Assembly: GCF_000711215.1 (NCBI RefSeq)
Contig: NZ_JOMF01000009.1
Coordinates: 1 to 64,000 of the forward strand
Direction of reading: 5' to 3'
DNA: 64,000 nt
Source: Methanomicrobium mobile BP
GTDB taxonomy: Archaea > Halobacteriota > Methanomicrobia > Methanomicrobiales > Methanomicrobiaceae
Part shown: piece after piece, positions 46,661-55,235 of the stretch
Position numbering within the stretch: the stretch's first letter is position 1
How the letters are laid out: every line of letters begins with the position of its first letter
The notes under the pieces: model-generated
What the model saw: the letters and a program-made list of their open reading frames with translations, nothing else
The model's database searches: none
Told to the model about the DNA's origin: nothing
Translations under genes and position numbers: made by a program

Positions 46661-46987
46661 ATGAAAATATATAACAAATTAGTCAGGGACAAAATTCCGG
46701 CAATTATTATTGCTGATGACGGAAATACTTGCAAAACGAGAATTCTGGACGACGATGAATATTTGCAGTGTCTTAATACAAAACTGCAAGAAGAATTGAA
46801 AGAGTATCTTGAAAGCGGGGATGTCGAAGAACTTGCGGATTTAGAAGAAGTAGTTAGAGCAATTCTGGATGCGAAAAAAGTAAGTTATGACGAATTTGAA
46901 AGAATAAGATGTGCAAAAGTTGAAAAACGGGGAGCATTTAAAGAAAAAATATTCCTTGAAAGTGTAAGTGAACCCGATGATCGATAA
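46661..46987 (+). CDS. MazG-like house-cleaning NTP pyrophosphohydrolase
   Basis: The 108-residue protein has the all-alpha NTP pyrophosphohydrolase pattern: KIYNKLVRDKIPAII, then KLQEELKEYLES and EELADLEEVVRAILDAKK, giving the EExxE/ExxD magnesium site of the MazG-related group (COG4997 type). It would hydrolyse abnormal or signalling nucleoside triphosphates. A GGAGGG site precedes the ATG by about 11 nt. Its end overlaps the helicase gene by about 11 bp. DNA here is clearly AT-rich compared with neighbours, suggesting horizontal transfer. Together with the helicase it may form a defence unit; that is inference. Confidence 0.82.
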   Translation: MKIYNKLVRDKIPAIIIADDGNTCKTRILDDDEYLQCLNTKLQEELKEYLESGDVEELADLEEVVRAILDAKKVSYDEFERIRCAKVEKRGAFKEKIFLESVSEPDDR

Positions 46988-49469
46988 AGAATATATTTGT
47001 AAACTTGGTCTGGAATTTATTGATGAGTACTCATTTGATGATGCTCATTGCTCTTTTGTGTTTAAGAAAGATGCTACTTGTTTCATCGTTGATGACAATA
47101 TTTGCGCAAATGACAGGAAAGTCGTTTTTGATTATTCAAAGTATTGCGAAATGCAGAATAAATACATGGCTCTTTTCGATAAACTTTACAGAGTTAACAT
47201 AACAAACAGAGATGATTACAGGTATATTGAAGAATGGTTAAGCAAAACTCCAAAAGATATCGAGATAAATGATGATGGGGGGTCATTTGACGTTACTCAT
47301 ACGGATAACACTCCGATTGAAAAAACATTTGAAGATTTGTTTGTGGAAACCTATGGAGATAATGCAACAGAGTATTTGAAGAAAGAGTATGCTGTTTCGT
47401 TAAACAATGGCAGAAATGCCTTTGTAGATTATGTTATAGAAACCAAATCAGGAAACTACGCTATTGAAGAAAACGGAGTTCGCTATCATCACCCCTGTAT
47501 TATCGGCAATAAAGCATATTCAAGACAATTGGAAAAGCAAAATACATTAAACCTGTATAATTTCAAAGTTTTCCGTTTTTCATCACAAAACCTGTCTTTC
47601 AGAGAGCAAACAATAGACAATATCAGGCTTTATCTGGGAAACAAAGATAATTTCATAAATTCCGTTGTAATCAAAGAAGAGAGAAAATTCAAACTTTACG
47701 AGCATCAGGAAGCAATTTTAAACGAGATTAATCAATCCAGAAAAGAGGGAATAAATACCGCACTTGTCGTAATTCCGACAGGTACGGGAAAATCTCAAAT
47801 TGTTATCGAAGATTTGAAAAATCTTGCCGAAAACGGACAGATACATAATGTTCTGATAATGGTACCGTCAATAATGGTCAGGGAAGATTGGCTGCAACGA
47901 TTAAAGATTTTTGACGGCAGACTTCAAATTGATGTTAAATTTTATAACACGGTTTTCCTTGAAAAGAATGCTCTTGAAAAAGAATATTACGATTACATTG
48001 TGTTTGATGAGGCTCATCATGCACAGGCGGCAAATTGTAAAAAGACATTACAGTATTTCACTCCAAAATTCCTGATAGGACTTACGGCAACGCCCGAAAG
48101 ATTGGATAGAAGGAAACTCGATGAAATCTTTGGTCAATATGAAACTAAACTGACATTAAGAGAAGCCATTGAAAAAAAAGTCATCTCAAATATCAGATGT
48201 TATCGCTTAATCAGCAATATCGATTTAAGTGAAGTCAGATACAACGGAAAAGATTACAACTATGCTGACCTTGAAAAAACACTTATCATCGATTCAAGAA
48301 ATGAACTCATAGTAAACACGATTGTCAAGTATTTCGAGCCGCATGATAATTTCTATAAGCAAGGCATTGTTTTTTGTGTAAATGTTCAGCATTGCAAAAA
48401 ACTTGAAAAACTCTTAAATCAAGCAGGAATAACCGCAAGAACTGTTTATGGCGGCAACAAAGAGAATGAGAAAATCGTTGAGAAATACAGGAATAAAGAA
48501 ATCCAATTCATATTAAGTTGTCAGGTAATAAGCGAAGGCTGGGATTGCCCGCAAACAGAAATTGTCGTTATGGCAAGACCTACACTTTCAAAAGTGCTGT
48601 ATCTGCAACAAATCGGTCGCGGTGTCAGAAATTATCCCGGCAAAGAATGTCTTTACGTTGTTGATGTCGTTGATAATTATGAAGGCAAACTTACACCCTG
48701 GAATTTCAATTCATTATTCAAGATTTCAAAATATTCCGATTTTGCGGGAGTAATAAACAATAATTCAGAATATTTGGATATTTTGGGATTGTCCGAACAG
48801 GAAATTTCAATGCAGGAAATTGATGTCTTTACATTTGAAGAAAAATACAAAGATTATCTGTCCTTAGAACAGGCGGCAAGAGAATTGTTTGTCGGAACAA
48901 ATACTCTTGCAAAATGGGCTAAAACCAATCCCGAATTTTCAAGTCTGGCACTCCCTATCGGCAACAAAATAATGCCGTATTTTTCAAGAGATGATTTGGT
49001 TAAAATAAGAGTTGCAAAGGATTTGAAAGAACACAACGAAAATACGATATTACAGGACTTTATTGATTTTATTGATGAAAACACTTTGACCTACTCTTTC
49101 AAGCTTATTTTCATGATAAACATGCTCAGGCTTGCAGACAGCGAAGGCGAAGTCAATATTGACAATTTAATGGATAATTACATCTCTTTCTATCAAGACA
49201 GAATTGACAGAAATTTGCAGGTTGACAGAAGAGGTTGCGTATTTGATTCAGAATATTTGAAAGACAGAACAAAGGTCAAAAAGAGCATACTTGACAATCC
49301 TTTTGAGAAATTTGAAAGGAAAAGATTTGTCTATTTCAGCAAAGACCTGAATGTACTTTCATTTAATCCTGCACTGTGGCAAAATTTAACCAACGAACTC
49401 AAAGAACAGGTAATTGAGAAAGAGCAGGACTTTCTCAGAGAGTATTACAAAAATATGGGCGGATTATAA
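46977..49469 (+). CDS. nuclease-domain SF2 helicase (putative defence)
   Basis: This 830-residue protein has an N-terminal region of about 130 residues of unknown type, then a PD-(D/E)xK/Vsr-like segment (FVDYVIETKSGNYAIEENG). An SF2 helicase core follows: Walker A PTGTGKS, DEAHH, LTATPERLD and QQIGRGVRN. A MerR/excisionase-like helix-turn-helix (LSLEQAARELFVGTNTLAKW) and a C-terminal helical domain complete it. A plausible role is degradation or unwinding of invading DNA. It overlaps the MazG-like gene, indicating a coupled operon. The coding sequence is AT-rich throughout and uses many A/T-ending codons. A GTG 9 bases upstream is an alternative start. Confidence 0.82.
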   Translation: MIDKEYICKLGLEFIDEYSFDDAHCSFVFKKDATCFIVDDNICANDRKVVFDYSKYCEMQNKYMALFDKLYRVNITNRDDYRYIEEWLSKTPKDIEINDDGGSFDVTHTDNTPIEKTFEDLFVETYGDNATEYLKKEYAVSLNNGRNAFVDYVIETKSGNYAIEENGVRYHHPCIIGNKAYSRQLEKQNTLNLYNFKVFRFSSQNLSFREQTIDNIRLYLGNKDNFINSVVIKEERKFKLYEHQEAILNEINQSRKEGINTALVVIPTGTGKSQIVIEDLKNLAENGQIHNVLIMVPSIMVREDWLQRLKIFDGRLQIDVKFYNTVFLEKNALEKEYYDYIVFDEAHHAQAANCKKTLQYFTPKFLIGLTATPERLDRRKLDEIFGQYETKLTLREAIEKKVISNIRCYRLISNIDLSEVRYNGKDYNYADLEKTLIIDSRNELIVNTIVKYFEPHDNFYKQGIVFCVNVQHCKKLEKLLNQAGITARTVYGGNKENEKIVEKYRNKEIQFILSCQVISEGWDCPQTEIVVMARPTLSKVLYLQQIGRGVRNYPGKECLYVVDVVDNYEGKLTPWNFNSLFKISKYSDFAGVINNNSEYLDILGLSEQEISMQEIDVFTFEEKYKDYLSLEQAARELFVGTNTLAKWAKTNPEFSSLALPIGNKIMPYFSRDDLVKIRVAKDLKEHNENTILQDFIDFIDENTLTYSFKLIFMINMLRLADSEGEVNIDNLMDNYISFYQDRIDRNLQVDRRGCVFDSEYLKDRTKVKKSILDNPFEKFERKRFVYFSKDLNVLSFNPALWQNLTNELKEQVIEKEQDFLREYYKNMGGL

Positions 49470-49575: not shown

Positions 49576-49810
49576 TCATTTCTTCCTTCTTTTCCCTTTC
49601 GGCGCCGGAAGCTCTTCGTACATCGCCTTTACGAGTTCGCAAAGGAAGGTTGCGTCGTCGATATTTTCCACTGGAAATGATGGGGTTCCGCCGGTGTAAG
49701 GAAGTTCCTTCACGGCATCCGGCATGGGACATGGGGTATGGGGTATGGGGCATCCGGCATCATGGCGGCGGCTGACTTCACGGGCTTGACAGGAAGGCGG
49801 TCGTCGTAAA
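49576..49810 (-). pseudogene. decayed TfoX-like gene
   Basis: The C-terminal part of the intact TfoX-like gene at 49965-50309 has a second, damaged copy here. VKELPYTGGTPSFPVENIDDA and LVKAMYEELPAPK match the intact end, and DDRLPVKPVKSAAAMMPDA matches the middle in another frame. The frames are broken by an insertion of CATGGGGTATGGGG-like repeats at about 49715-49760. The N-terminal third is missing. It is therefore a truncated, frameshifted duplicate, not a gene. Confidence 0.8.
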
Positions 49811-49964
49811 ACCTGTCGGGATTCCACTGAGTTCTCGGATGTCACTTAATTTTGAACTGCCGAGGATTCCTCGGTAGTTGAAACATGTAGGGTTCCACTG
49901 AGTTCCTTTCAGTTGCGTTTATCCTTTCCGGCGTTCCGATGCATGGTGCCTTTCCCCCCGTCCC

Positions 49965-50309
49965 CTACTTCTTCCCTTTCCCTCGTTTCGTCTTCGGTTT
50001 CGGTTCTGGAAGTTCCTCATACATTGCCCTGACAAGTGCCGTCAGAAAGTCGGCATCATCGACGTTGTCCGCAAGAAGCATCGGCTTTGCTCCCTCGTAG
50101 GGAAGTTCCTTCACGGCATGGGGCATCATGGCGGCGGCTGACTTCACAGGCTTGACAAGAAGGCGGTCGTCGTAGATACCGCCGAAGATCTTACCCTTAT
50201 AATAGAGAATATACTCCCCCATCATAGGTCGGAATGTGATCTCCGGCGACAGATCGGAGAGCTGTTCCAGAACGAAATCGAGATAGGATCTGCTTGACGG
50301 CATCGGCAA
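49965..50309 (-). CDS. TfoX N-terminal domain-like protein
   Basis: The 114-residue protein has the TfoX-N fold pattern: YLDFVLEQLSDLSPEITFRP, MMGEYILYYKGKIFGGIYDD, RLLVKPVKSAAAM and a helical C-terminus with LTALVRAMYEELP, then a basic tail (KPKTKRGKGKK). In bacteria TfoX controls competence, but stand-alone archaeal and bacterial TfoX-N proteins are of unknown function. A decayed duplicate lies 150 bp downstream. Upstream begins the palindrome-rich region. Confidence 0.82.
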   Translation of the reverse strand: MPMPSSRSYLDFVLEQLSDLSPEITFRPMMGEYILYYKGKIFGGIYDDRLLVKPVKSAAAMMPHAVKELPYEGAKPMLLADNVDDADFLTALVRAMYEELPEPKPKTKRGKGKK

Positions 50310-50406: not shown

Positions 50407-50431
50407 ATTTTCCGGACGGTGTCCGGAAAAT
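50407..50431. repeat. 25-bp palindrome A
   Basis: ATTTTCCGGAC and its exact reverse complement are separated by GGT. The left arm plus spacer also occurs as a direct repeat at 50382-50400. Confidence 0.9.
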
Positions 50432-50577
50432 GTGTAAGCGGGAAGGATGTTCACCCGCGGCAGTGTTTACCGGCGGGTCACGATTAATATTATATATGAT
50501 TGCGAAAAATGCCCCACAGCCCAAATACCGCATATCCCGCATATAATTGCAATTACTCTCCGGTTTGACCACATTCA

Positions 50578-50604
50578 AATTGTGCCGACAGTGTTGGCAC
50601 AATT
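50578..50604. repeat. 27-bp near-palindrome B
   Basis: AATTGTGCC is matched exactly by GGCACAATT, and the 9-base interior can pair further with one G-T wobble, leaving a single central base. Confidence 0.85.
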
Positions 50605-50679
50605 CATTGTATAAAAGATTGATGATGCAATATCCTATAATCTCCTCACTCTCCGACCGACTCTGATTCAGTATCTTAA

Positions 50680-50702
50680 GTTGGTTACAGTTTGTAACCA
50701 AC
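50680..50702. repeat. palindrome C (GGTTACA-N3-TGTAACC)
   Basis: Arms of 10 bp, GTTGGTTACA and TGTAACCAAC, are separated by GTT. Member of the GGTNACA-N3-TGTNACC group. Confidence 0.9.
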
Positions 50703-50712
50703 CGGCATTTGA

Positions 50713-50729
50713 GATCACAAATTGTGATC
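50713..50729. repeat. palindrome D (GATCACA-N3-TGTGATC)
   Basis: GATCACAA and TTGTGATC flank a single A; written with a 3-base spacer it is GATCACA-AAT-TGTGATC, matching the group consensus apart from a G-to-A change that is matched in the other arm. Confidence 0.9.
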
Positions 50730-50738
50730 ACAAACAAA

Positions 50739-50757
50739 CGGTTACAAGTTGTAACCG
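50739..50757. repeat. palindrome E (GGTTACA-N3-TGTAACC)
   Basis: Arms CGGTTACA and TGTAACCG surround AGT. The core equals that of palindrome C, but the outer base and spacer differ. Confidence 0.9.
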
Positions 50758-50835
50758 GTTGAACCCGGTGATCTTCACCTCCTTTGAACCTGCCGGAATT
50801 TCCGGACAACTGCCTGCACCCTCACGAACTCATGA

Positions 50836-51212
50836 GGTGGTCAAAAGAAAAAACAGGTGGTCATAAGGGTTATTTTGCGAAATTACAGGTGGTCAAAAGG
50901 GTTATTTTCATAAAAATGCAGGTGGTCAAAAGACAAAAAAACGGCAATACAGGCTGTTTTCGGGCTGAACAGGTGGTCAATAAGGTGGTCAAAAGAATTT
51001 TACAGGTGGTCAAAAGAAAAAACAGGTGGTCATAAGGGTTATTTTACGAAATTACAGGTGGTCAAAAGGGTTATTTTCATAAAATTGCGGGTGGTCAAAA
51101 GGAAAAACAGGTGGTCATAAGGGTTATTTTGCGAAATTATTGGTGGTCAAAAGGGTTATTTTAAGAAATAACAAGCAATTCCGAGTTTTTTTTCGGAGAC
51201 TTTCAGGTGCTC
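50836..51212. repeat. array of 12 GGTGGTCA(A/T)AAG repeats
   Basis: The sequence GGTGGTCAAAAG or GGTGGTCATAAG, with one inserted-base variant, starts at 50836, 50856, 50888, 50921, 50972, 50984, 51005, 51025, 51057, 51090, 51110 and 51142. A degenerate copy GGTGCTC lies at 51206. Spacings are 20, 32, 33, 51, 12, 21, 20, 32, 33, 20 and 32 bp; most are near two or three helical turns. The intervening sequences GGTTATTTTGCGAAATTAC and similar also repeat, forming higher-order blocks. Spacings are not multiples of three, so it is not a coding repeat. Confidence 0.92.
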
Positions 51213-51224
51213 AAAAGGACATTT

Positions 51225-51251
51225 CAGTTGTTGCAAAAAATGCAACAACTG
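51225..51251. repeat. 27-bp palindrome F
   Basis: CAGTTGTTGCA and TGCAACAACTG (11-bp arms) flank AAAAA. Confidence 0.9.
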
Positions 51252-51280
51252 CCCCGCACTTACACAATATATAAATATCA

Positions 51281-51310
51281 GACATTGTGGGGACGCGTCA
51301 CCACAATGTC
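51281..51310. repeat. 30-bp near-perfect palindrome G
   Basis: Outer arms GACATTGTGG and CCACAATGTC enclose the inner palindrome GACGCGTC (51292-51299). Fourteen of fifteen symmetric base pairs match. Confidence 0.9.
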
Positions 51311-51400
51311 TCATATATAAATGATTCGGCTCATCAGACACGGACATACGACACAATCTAAACGGTTTTACCAATCCGACGACAATATCACGATTTTTTC

Positions 51401-51425
51401 AGTTGGTGACAAATTGTCACCGACT
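51401..51425. repeat. palindrome H (GGTGACA-N3-TGTCACC)
   Basis: The exact core GGTGACA-AAT-TGTCACC is extended outward by AGT/ACT with one mismatch. Lies about 160 bp upstream of xseA. Confidence 0.9.
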
Positions 51426-51503
51426 CAAATCCCCATATCGTGAGTCCATGAATCACCGCATCCCGAAACTTACGCCGCCAGCCCGCCATCATCATGACCG
51501 GAC

Positions 51504-51530
51504 TTTGAGGTCACGGATTGTGACCTCAAA
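51504..51530. repeat. palindrome I upstream of xseA
   Basis: Eleven-base arms TTTGAGGTCAC and GTGACCTCAAA flank GGATT. It ends 55 bp before the xseA ATG, a position where it could overlap promoter elements. Confidence 0.9.
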
Positions 51531-51585: not shown

Positions 51586-52932
51586 ATGGATTGGTTCGGA
51601 ACCGGCGACGCGGTGGAAAACGGAAAAAAAGAGGCACGATCCAAAACGTCGCGGACGGCAAAAACGAAAACCCCGCTGCAATACGGTGAGCAGTCGAAAG
51701 ACGAACCCGCATACGACCTCACAGACGACCGCGACAGGATAAAGACCGTATCCGAGATATCCTCGGTAATCAGCCGGCTCCTCGACATCGACGAACTCAA
51801 AGACCTCTGGGTCGAAGGCGAAATAACCAACCACCGACCACACCCCTCCGGACACCTCTACTTCTCGCTCGCCGAGATCAAAAAAGGAGAAACCTACGTC
51901 ATACAAGCCGTAATGTGGAAATCCTACGCACGCGAACTCGGCTTCGAACCGAAAAACGGCGACAGGGTAAGACTCTACGGCTCCGTCGAAGTCTACGAGC
52001 CGCACGGCAAATACCAGTTCACAGCCCGCGAGATCGTCCCCTGCGGACAGGGCGACAAACACCTCCTCGTCGCAAAATGGAAGGAACAGCTCTACAGAGA
52101 AGGCATCTTCGACGACGACCATAAAAAACCCATCCCCAAATTCCCCGAAAAAGTAGGCGTGGTCACAGCCGCAGGCGGCGCCGCAAGACGCGACATCGAA
52201 AACATCATCTCAAGACGCTTCCCCGTCGAAATCATCCTCTCCCCCGCCGCCGTACAGGGCGACAACGCACACACCGAAATAGCCCAAGCAATCCGCAGAA
52301 TCGACGGCATGGTCGACGTCATCATAGTCGGACGCGGCGGCGGCAGCTTCGAAGACCTCTTCGAATTCAACCACCCCGAAGTCGTCATGGCAGTCTACAA
52401 CTGCAAAACCCCAATCATCAGCGCCGTCGGACACCAGATAGACACCACCCTCTGCGACTTCGCCGCCGACATCAGCGCACCCACACCCTCCGCCGCCGCC
52501 GAACTCGCCGTCCCCGACATCGCCGAACTCCTCAAAGAACTCGCATACCTTAAGAAAAACCTCGTCAACTCGCTCGAAACCCGATTCGAAAGAGAACACG
52601 CCGAACTTGAAAACCTGAGACTGCGCCTTCGCCCCAACAGACTCGCAAAAATAATCAACACGCGGCAGGAAACCGCCGCACAACTCGCGCTGAGACTCCG
52701 CAACGCCATCACACAGAAACTCAGAAACGAAAGAAACGAACTCAACCTCCTCAAAACCGGACTCGAACTCGGCAACCCCAAACTCCCCATCAAAAAAGGA
52801 TACTGCATGGTAACCGCCGGCGGACACATAATCCGAACCGTCAAAGACCTGAAAATCGACACGGAAATCAGCATCGAGCTCGCCGACGGCACCGCCGACG
52901 CAAAAGTAACAAAAATCACGGAGAAAAAATGA
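51586..52932 (+). CDS. xseA: exodeoxyribonuclease VII large subunit
   Basis: The 448-residue protein has an N-terminal OB-fold (VISRLLDIDELKDLWVEGEI, PSGHLYFSLAEIK), the catalytic core GVVTAAGGAARRDIENIISRR and DVIIVGRGGGSFEDLFEFN, and TPIISAVGHQIDTTLCDFAAD. Coiled coils and a C-terminal strand region complete it. The bacterial XseA motif usually reads TSPTGAAxxD; here it is TAAGGAARRD. The start was placed at ATG 51586 because upstream sequence in frame is not conserved and contains palindromes. xseB follows in an ATGA overlap. It degrades single-stranded DNA; the pair was probably acquired from bacteria in an ancestor. Coding DNA is markedly C-rich. Confidence 0.93.
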   Translation: MDWFGTGDAVENGKKEARSKTSRTAKTKTPLQYGEQSKDEPAYDLTDDRDRIKTVSEISSVISRLLDIDELKDLWVEGEITNHRPHPSGHLYFSLAEIKKGETYVIQAVMWKSYARELGFEPKNGDRVRLYGSVEVYEPHGKYQFTAREIVPCGQGDKHLLVAKWKEQLYREGIFDDDHKKPIPKFPEKVGVVTAAGGAARRDIENIISRRFPVEIILSPAAVQGDNAHTEIAQAIRRIDGMVDVIIVGRGGGSFEDLFEFNHPEVVMAVYNCKTPIISAVGHQIDTTLCDFAADISAPTPSAAAELAVPDIAELLKELAYLKKNLVNSLETRFEREHAELENLRLRLRPNRLAKIINTRQETAAQLALRLRNAITQKLRNERNELNLLKTGLELGNPKLPIKKGYCMVTAGGHIIRTVKDLKIDTEISIELADGTADAKVTKITEKK

Positions 52933-53897: not shown

Positions 53898-55235
53898 ATG
53901 GTCGCCGAAACTAACTCAGGATGTACAAATACTGGGGAGCCTCACTCTTATAAAGAAGAGGATATCACCAGATGTTCTGATAAAAATTCCCCGGTTCGTG
54001 CGTTCATGAACACAGAATATGCTTCTCTGAGAAGCGAAATTAATCAATACAAATCTGGGCAGATAACGCTATTTACCGCAACGGCATCAGCGACCGGAAT
54101 CATGCTTGGCTTGTTTGTAAACCTCATGATAAATCAAAAATCAGATCTATTTTTCAGCGCCATTTTGATATTCTTACCACTGATGGTAATACTGCCATCA
54201 TCTTGGATGTATTTTGAGAAAGCAATCAAGATTAACCGCCTAGAGGCTTATTGCACAGCATATGCTAAAAATATATTATATACCCCGTTAAAAGATTATC
54301 ACTATTTGGGATACTCCGAATACAAAAAAGAATACCTTAAGACATTTGCTACCCGTGAGAGCATATACATCAAGAACGCTCCCAGTTACATTGATAAGTA
54401 TCAAAGATTCGTAAAAGCGGAAAAAGCCCTTACACATTGGATCTTTAGAGATGATCTCCGATATTGGACAAATTCGTTTTGGGCATATCTCGGATTGGAA
54501 ACCATTTGTGTATTGGTGTTCGTTGTATTTGTTTTACAAAATCCGAGCATCATTTTTCAAATGACTCATATGAATAGTTGTATTTATCTGAGTGTCGCTT
54601 TATCGATAATATTTACTTTGTTAATAATTTTCTTAAAAATATATGGAGATATTTTTTCTGACAATGATCAATATTTCATGAGATTGATTAGTCTAGAAGT
54701 AATTTTAATATTCTTCTGGAGTTTGCAGGACATATTACTTTTAGGTCACATTGGATTGGTCAATTACACTGTGAGCATAGTCTCATTTGCAATATTCTGC
54801 TTGTGTCATTATAATGTCGCGACAATGAATTATTTTAGGACACTTACGTCTTCTGAACTCGTATCGAATCATTTTCCATTTGTAAAGTTTGTTTCATCTA
54901 AACTTTCATTGAAAGTTATGTCATTTGTATCATTTATAGTGTCTACGATTATCATATACGGATTCGGCGTAGTTTATACTTGTATAAATGAATCACTTGT
55001 TCCCAATATATGTGGAGTTGCAATAATTTCGATATCAATTATTATCTTATCGATAATATGGAAAATAGTGACTGTATCATCGATTCTTATGGGTAATTCA
55101 TCATATCAAAAATCACTAGATCGCTGGGAATATGTTATTGAAAAACTTATGAAATCGGAAAAACAAGACCCAGACTTCTCAGATGATAAGATTGAAATAT
55201 ATCCGTCTGTGGACATGCCGGATAACAAAAAATAA
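53898..55235 (+). CDS. AT-rich multi-pass membrane protein
   Basis: The 445-residue protein has a soluble N-terminal section with EYASLRSEINQYKSGQITLF. Two closely spaced hydrophobic helices follow, then a polar cytoplasmic-like stretch (about residues 115-190) and about six more membrane segments, ending in a charged tail. The N-terminal part is reminiscent of SLATT-like or RipA-like membrane proteins that start E(Y/F)..LR.EI, but this is weak. The coding DNA is AT-rich, unlike the flanking xse and HVO_0476-type genes, so it was probably acquired. It converges on another AT-rich gene with an 8-bp gap. The function is unknown. Confidence 0.65.
   Translation: MVAETNSGCTNTGEPHSYKEEDITRCSDKNSPVRAFMNTEYASLRSEINQYKSGQITLFTATASATGIMLGLFVNLMINQKSDLFFSAILIFLPLMVILPSSWMYFEKAIKINRLEAYCTAYAKNILYTPLKDYHYLGYSEYKKEYLKTFATRESIYIKNAPSYIDKYQRFVKAEKALTHWIFRDDLRYWTNSFWAYLGLETICVLVFVVFVLQNPSIIFQMTHMNSCIYLSVALSIIFTLLIIFLKIYGDIFSDNDQYFMRLISLEVILIFFWSLQDILLLGHIGLVNYTVSIVSFAIFCLCHYNVATMNYFRTLTSSELVSNHFPFVKFVSSKLSLKVMSFVSFIVSTIIIYGFGVVYTCINESLVPNICGVAIISISIIILSIIWKIVTVSSILMGNSSYQKSLDRWEYVIEKLMKSEKQDPDFSDDKIEIYPSVDMPDNKK

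Follow-up and report, generated by a model that had tools for sequence, protein, structure and literature searches.

A palindrome cluster in the tfoX-xseA gap of Methanomicrobium mobile probably consists of orphan, putative YhcG-type dyad sites in a hotspot for defence genes

The window analysed here, a stretch of 64,000 nucleotides from Methanomicrobium mobile BP, contains a gap between a tfoX-like gene and xseA in which inverted repeats are crowded together with an array of direct repeats (Table 1). Between positions 50407 and 51530 we count nine palindromes, just as originally reported, while 200 dinucleotide shuffles gave a mean of 0.07 and a maximum of one. A tenth is situated at 49851-49883, beyond the range first considered. 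When a strong palindrome is defined by an arm score of at least 9 and a loop of at most 6, the whole genome (12 contigs, 1.71 Mb, scanned except for 91 bases of contig C5) contains 157 of them. Only three separate places of 1.1 kb harbor three or more: the tfoX-xseA gap with nine, C9:147.7k also with nine and C4:148.7k with three. The cluster therefore stands up to comparison with other intergenic regions, as its density is equalled at a single further place, C9:147.7k, and this place, like C4:148.7k, adjoins a gene for a YhcG/DUF1016 nuclease.

The original prediction described arms that differ from site to site. It is indeed symmetry rather than one sequence that is kept, but if one mismatch is allowed, GTNACANNNTGTNAC is common to four of the palindromes (0.6 expected; four or more in 0 of 100 shuffles) and a fifth, GATCACAAATTGTGATC, has the same form. 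What had been taken for a 30-bp near-palindrome at 51281 extends over 42 bp (51275-51316). The palindromes as such were recognized correctly in the first description of the layout, in which the direct-repeat array and the link to YhcG nucleases were overlooked. A scan for terminators yielded two hits with 1.2 expected, which is chance level, and among the palindromes only 50739-50757 has a terminator-like score.

Table 1. Features of the tfoX-xseA gap and its borders (window coordinates)
Feature	Position	Strand	Remarks
tfoX-like gene (TfoX_N)	49965..50309	-	left border of gap
P1 ATTTTCCGGACGGTGTCCGGAAAAT	50407..50431		putative YhcG-type; format as in-gene palindromes of L132 ATTTTCCAGACACCGTCTGGAAAAT and L139 ATTTTCCACACGGTGTGTGGAAAAT; rank 5 with bacterial matrix
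P2 AATTGTGCCGACAGTGTTGGCACAATT	50578..50604		putative YhcG-type; rank 4 with bacterial matrix; 20/27 to in-gene site of sister C64 yhcG
P3 GTTGGTTACAGTTTGTAACCAAC	50680..50702		ACA-NNN-TGT type; conserved in sister species
P4 TTTGAGATCACAAATTGTGATCACAAA	50708..50734		perfect copy 97 nt upstream of yhcG start in sister species
P5 CAAACGGTTACAAGTTGTAACCGGTTG	50735..50761		ACA-NNN-TGT type; conserved in sister species
AGGTGGTCAAAAG array	50835..51217	+	12 same-direction copies, at most 1 mismatch, in 84-85-bp higher-order units
P8 CAGTTGTTGCAAAAAATGCAACAACTG	51225..51251		resembles CAACTTGTGCAATTTTTGCACAAGTTG upstream of C9:146.6k yhcG gene
P9 ATATCAGACATTGTGGGGACGCGTCACCACAATGTCTCATAT	51275..51316		putative YhcG-type; rank 9 with bacterial matrix; conserved, duplicated either side of sister-species yhcG
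P10 TTTCAGTTGGTGACAAATTGTCACCGACTCAAA	51397..51429		duplicated together with P9 in sister species
P11 TTTGAGGTCACGGATTGTGACCTCAAA	51504..51530		about 55 nt upstream of xseA start
xseA (exonuclease VII large subunit)	51586..52932	+	right border; likely ATG at 51586

The AGGTGGTCAAAAG array is unique in the genome and otherwise occurs only in the sister species. Neither the array nor P9 has an exact match in a collection of viral contigs, and a virus origin was rejected on this basis. An inverted motif, TTGACCAC, is found beside several palindromes (window 50564; L072; L073). The full tfoX-like gene is adjoined by a second, partial copy on the minus strand (49576-49845), which alone has no Pfam match. 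The locus is flanked, as in a genomic island, by a ResIII-type helicase gene in DNA of low G+C content (46968-49469, 38-40%) and by a gene for an unidentified protein of 445 amino acids in DNA of 33% G+C (53898-55235). Near position 50000, both GC and AT skew change sign, which tracks a change in gene orientation.

Three YhcG/DUF1016 genes are present in the genome. None of them resides in the window, the nearest on the same contig being that at C9:146.6k (146547-147611, minus strand), and the C9:147.7k cluster is located directly upstream of it. The C4:148.7k cluster flanks another. In the C9 cluster, a gene-free region (C9:147788-148660; L082 3788-4660) contains several palindrome types including GCATGGGATTATAATCC(C/A)ATGC hairpins, which recur at C5:314.4 kb and next to yhcG genes in the sister species.

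In this sister species (G020), which is the closest relative, two contigs each cover part of the gap. On C33, the last features are hsdM, hsdS, a T5orf172 gene, tfoX, a Fic gene, P3-P5 and the direct-repeat array. The other contig, C63, opens with the end of a different gene, after which come a P9-P10 module, yhcG, a P4-like palindrome, a second P9-P10 module, P11 and xseA. The yhcG gene (L073 436-1551, minus strand), which is thus placed between two module copies of about 180 bp, encodes a full member of the YhcG/DUF1016 family, and the Fic, T5orf172 and YhcG proteins all match PADLOC defence candidates. Six of the gap palindromes are kept in the sister species, and identity between the two species amounts to 126/137 (92%) in the palindrome arms versus 218/292 (75%) in the remainder. 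The orthologous gap of the closest relative thus retains the symmetry, while the xseA gaps of the genus members G018, G019 and G022 contain no such cluster.

At four of six yhcG loci in the two species, a flanking palindrome matches a stretch of the gene that it accompanies, at nucleotides 290-400 (20/25, 24/27, 24/25 and 24/25), as compared with only 13-18 matches of the same palindromes to other yhcG genes. Sister P9 and the in-gene site of the yhcG in the same gap are one of these pairs (20/25); window P9 is one base shorter at its centre and, with 14/24 in ungapped alignment, does not match that site. For two of the three yhcG genes of the window's genome, no in-gene copy of the flanking palindrome was found. 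Matching flanking copies are not a general rule either, being absent at most bacterial loci: across 45 mostly bacterial loci, the mean was 8.5 versus 7.6 for permuted pairs, which reached 8.6 at most. Such copies are therefore specific to certain lineages. At two further places, G020:C45 and G020:C64, the sister species has a yhcG gene that is absent from the syntenic position in the window's genome, and at the former the empty allele keeps a palindrome of which the sister gene contains three copies. With presence and absence differing between the sister species at no fewer than three places, yhcG genes evidently come and go, and palindromes can remain.

Palindromes are in fact a feature of yhcG reading frames themselves. 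We surveyed 80 yhcG genes from across the bacteria and one archaeon for in-frame palindromes with a score of at least 8. Such palindromes are present in 66, mostly at one fixed place: they measure 17-35 bp and are located where the codons connect one helix of the ParB-like helix-turn-helix to another, just before the LSWSHY or IPWGHN codons. Over the 90 nt preceding LSWSHY, their density is 6.8 per kb, as opposed to 0.18 per kb in the surrounding DNA. The gene of E. coli K-12 (L128 3828-4995, NC_000913.3) has three of 27-35 bp, which possess a common CAGAC-NNN-GTCTG core and encode repeated QTxSG/A peptides; a fourth palindrome follows 16 nt after the stop codon. Where the linker of YhcG is short, the palindrome coincides with conserved codons (IRDALRHEL) and is therefore not simply an inserted element.

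Randomization of synonymous codons with the peptide kept constant gave p<0.05 for 69 of 86 genes, sequences that are related and tests that are accordingly not independent, and the mean score was 10.0 versus 5.1 after randomization. When 52 in-gene palindromes were aligned, 89% of the cells were paired versus 65% in shuffles, covariation was 0.587 versus 0.174, two-sided changes occurred at 13 of 14 pairs and the pairing collapsed upon a slide by one column. As these 52 had been selected for palindromicity, the randomization of synonymous codons is the cleaner control; what the covariation reveals is the diversity of arms that nonetheless stay complementary. At positions 2-12 from the centre, G-U mismatches (12) are not favoured over A-C mismatches (10), which identifies a DNA dyad and not an RNA hairpin as the conserved entity. 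The binding by dyadic proteins that had been suggested for the gap palindromes fits best with this pattern in their in-gene homologs.

YhcG proteins consist of DUF1016_N and a PD-(D/E)XK domain, and DUF1016_N and YhcG_C are the only Pfam hits. The HTH_ParB profile (PF17762) is matched by 49 of 61 YhcG proteins, with 1.1e-5 as the best value; the match is weak, since the first member scores below the curated cut-off. NucS_C is matched by eight of the 61 (best 1.4e-3). We found no solved YhcG structure by sequence search. Foldseek comparison of an AlphaFold2 model (mean pLDDT 78) related the nuclease domain to NucS/EndoMS and the helix-turn-helix to ParB/Spo0J/Noc, with weak E-values of 0.005-0.2. 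In L130, the palindrome occupies codons 113-122, with a helix at 99-111 on one side and, on the other, the HTH_ParB match, which begins at residue 124. Furthermore, differences between palindromes track those between helix-turn-helix domains when differences between nuclease domains are controlled for (partial r 0.33 vs 0.21). YhcG has been predicted to be a nuclease akin to Holliday-junction resolvases, without conserved neighbours and with unknown role (PMC1189080), and has been listed on mobile elements (PMC4316617). The DUF1016/YhcG literature searched, which included few subscription papers and preprints, mentions no palindromes; within this scope the gap palindromes are undescribed, as originally supposed, and the novelty of YhcG palindromes is provisional.

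How do the sites in the window compare with those inside yhcG genes? P1, P2 and P9 fit a dyad of 25-29 bp with an ATT...AC.CR core and its mirror image. A folded matrix derived from 52 bacterial in-gene palindromes and scanned over the archaeal genome placed three sites of the yhcG at C4:185-187k first, followed by P2, P1, two C5 sites, one site at C4:147k and P9. P2 (8.44) and P1 (7.21) narrowly exceed the maxima of Markov controls, which peaked at 3.6-7.1, whereas P9 (4.22) does not. This ranking is suggestive of YhcG-type sites for P1 and P2, and for P9 taken alone it is weak. P3-P5, P10 and P11 share a second core, ACARNYTGT (ACA-NNN-TGT, type B), which by eye resembles that of IPWGHN-type YhcG sites (L098-L100, L314-L316). 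A type-B matrix, constructed from ten sequences and thus from too few to discriminate, did not single out these five, and no cognate yhcG gene for them was identified in either sister species.

Taken together, gap palindromes of the kind hidden in yhcG genes and a yhcG gene at the same place in the sister species make the gap look like a set of leftover predicted binding sites. We consider it probable, at roughly 0.6, that the gap is an orphan cluster of putative YhcG-type dyad sites at a hotspot for defence genes. On the other hand, the palindromes might be conventional operators through which several unrelated archaeal repressors controlled accessory genes that have since been lost from the gap. 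Dyads of 17-27 bp near likely TATA boxes would suit this, as would the location of P11 and of the sister P4 copy ahead of xseA and yhcG, respectively, and the GTNACANNNTGTNAC core in four palindromes is what one regulator's sites would be expected to share. This explanation is nevertheless unlikely, because length and format equal those of the in-gene yhcG palindromes, both of the other dense clusters in the genome adjoin yhcG genes and the gap is devoid of a regulator gene.

Twelve directional 13-mers beside inverted repeats, together with the change in strand skew near 50 kb, could indicate an iteron-like replication or partition control region, either native or derived from an integrated plasmid. 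Such a function is highly improbable: the hits for both orc1/cdc6 genes are on another contig (C4), which led us to reject an origin of replication at the gap, neither rep nor par genes are present there, the sign change in skew goes with gene orientation and the cluster is absent from other members of the genus. Chances are equally slim for dispersed non-autonomous mobile elements, be they REP- or MITE-like hairpins or multi-repeat ends of the IS21 type. Short palindromes, the duplicated module of the sister species and the accessory-gene hotspot would be in line with them, but the sites differ in sequence and are not dispersed over the genome. Moreover, the AGGTGGTCAAAAG array cannot be equated with IS21 terminal repeats, as IS21 loci of relatives have no GTGGTCA repeats and the genome has no IS21 transposase hit. 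Least probable of all are transcribed hairpins acting as small RNAs or in RNA-level control, for although stems of 10-15 pairs would fold, a scan with Rfam models gave no family match in the gap and the in-gene homologs do not prefer G-U over A-C mismatches.

If the gap is indeed a collection of orphan YhcG-type sites, the following scenario can be put forward. YhcG combines a ParB-like helix-turn-helix with a NucS-like PD-(D/E)XK nuclease, and its dimers are predicted to bind a dyad via the former. Each yhcG lineage has its own palindrome of 25-29 bp, present as a rule in one copy within the gene, where it lies in the codons that separate the predicted recognition helix from the helix after it; some lineages have additional copies on the flanks of the gene. 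Occupancy of the in-gene site could block transcription and thereby serve autoregulation, or could mark the gene for recombination. Site and recognition module, being one piece of DNA, would travel together. The tfoX-xseA gap appears to act as a hotspot for defence-type genes in the pair of sister species, and the window cluster would comprise predicted sites that seem to represent several lineages, and may date from several earlier residents, at a place now without yhcG. The window allele may have arisen by loss of a yhcG gene, with gain versus loss undecided. Homing or transposition is conceivable. More tentatively, and with some doubt on our part, yhcG might be self-addressed, that is the protein's predicted site would form part of the sequence that encodes its DNA-binding domain, the nuclease would control or spread its own gene and clusters would be landing pads or fossils.

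YhcG/DUF1016 (PF17761 and PF06250; PADLOC PDC-S02) is a widespread nuclease family with a representative in E. coli K-12, listed only as a phage-defence candidate and with no known target. The conserved in-gene palindrome provides most members with a predicted binding site, so YhcG function becomes directly testable, in E. coli first. For palindrome clusters of this kind, a reading rule follows: a present or lost yhcG gene should be looked for. The window palindromes share the format of the family's in-gene palindromes, but the window itself has no yhcG gene. ParB/Noc and their parS/NBS sites resemble the YhcG case in that the sites are palindromic and that YhcG has a ParB-like helix-turn-helix by profile and fold; YhcG sites differ in being longer (25-29 bp), lineage-specific and inside the gene, and a nuclease domain is attached to the protein. 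In the REP/RAYT system, too, a nuclease-type gene is associated with its own kind of palindrome. RAYTs belong to the HUH enzymes and act on REP hairpins that are single-stranded and scattered through genomes, whereas YhcG is of the PD-(D/E)XK type and its sites are within the gene and next to it. Palindromes in reading frames are likewise known from the Rickettsia palindromic elements. These elements are insertions in unrelated genes; the yhcG palindrome, by contrast, occurs in one gene family at one fixed place, often overlies conserved codons such as those for IRDALRHEL and has a sequence that is specific to each lineage.
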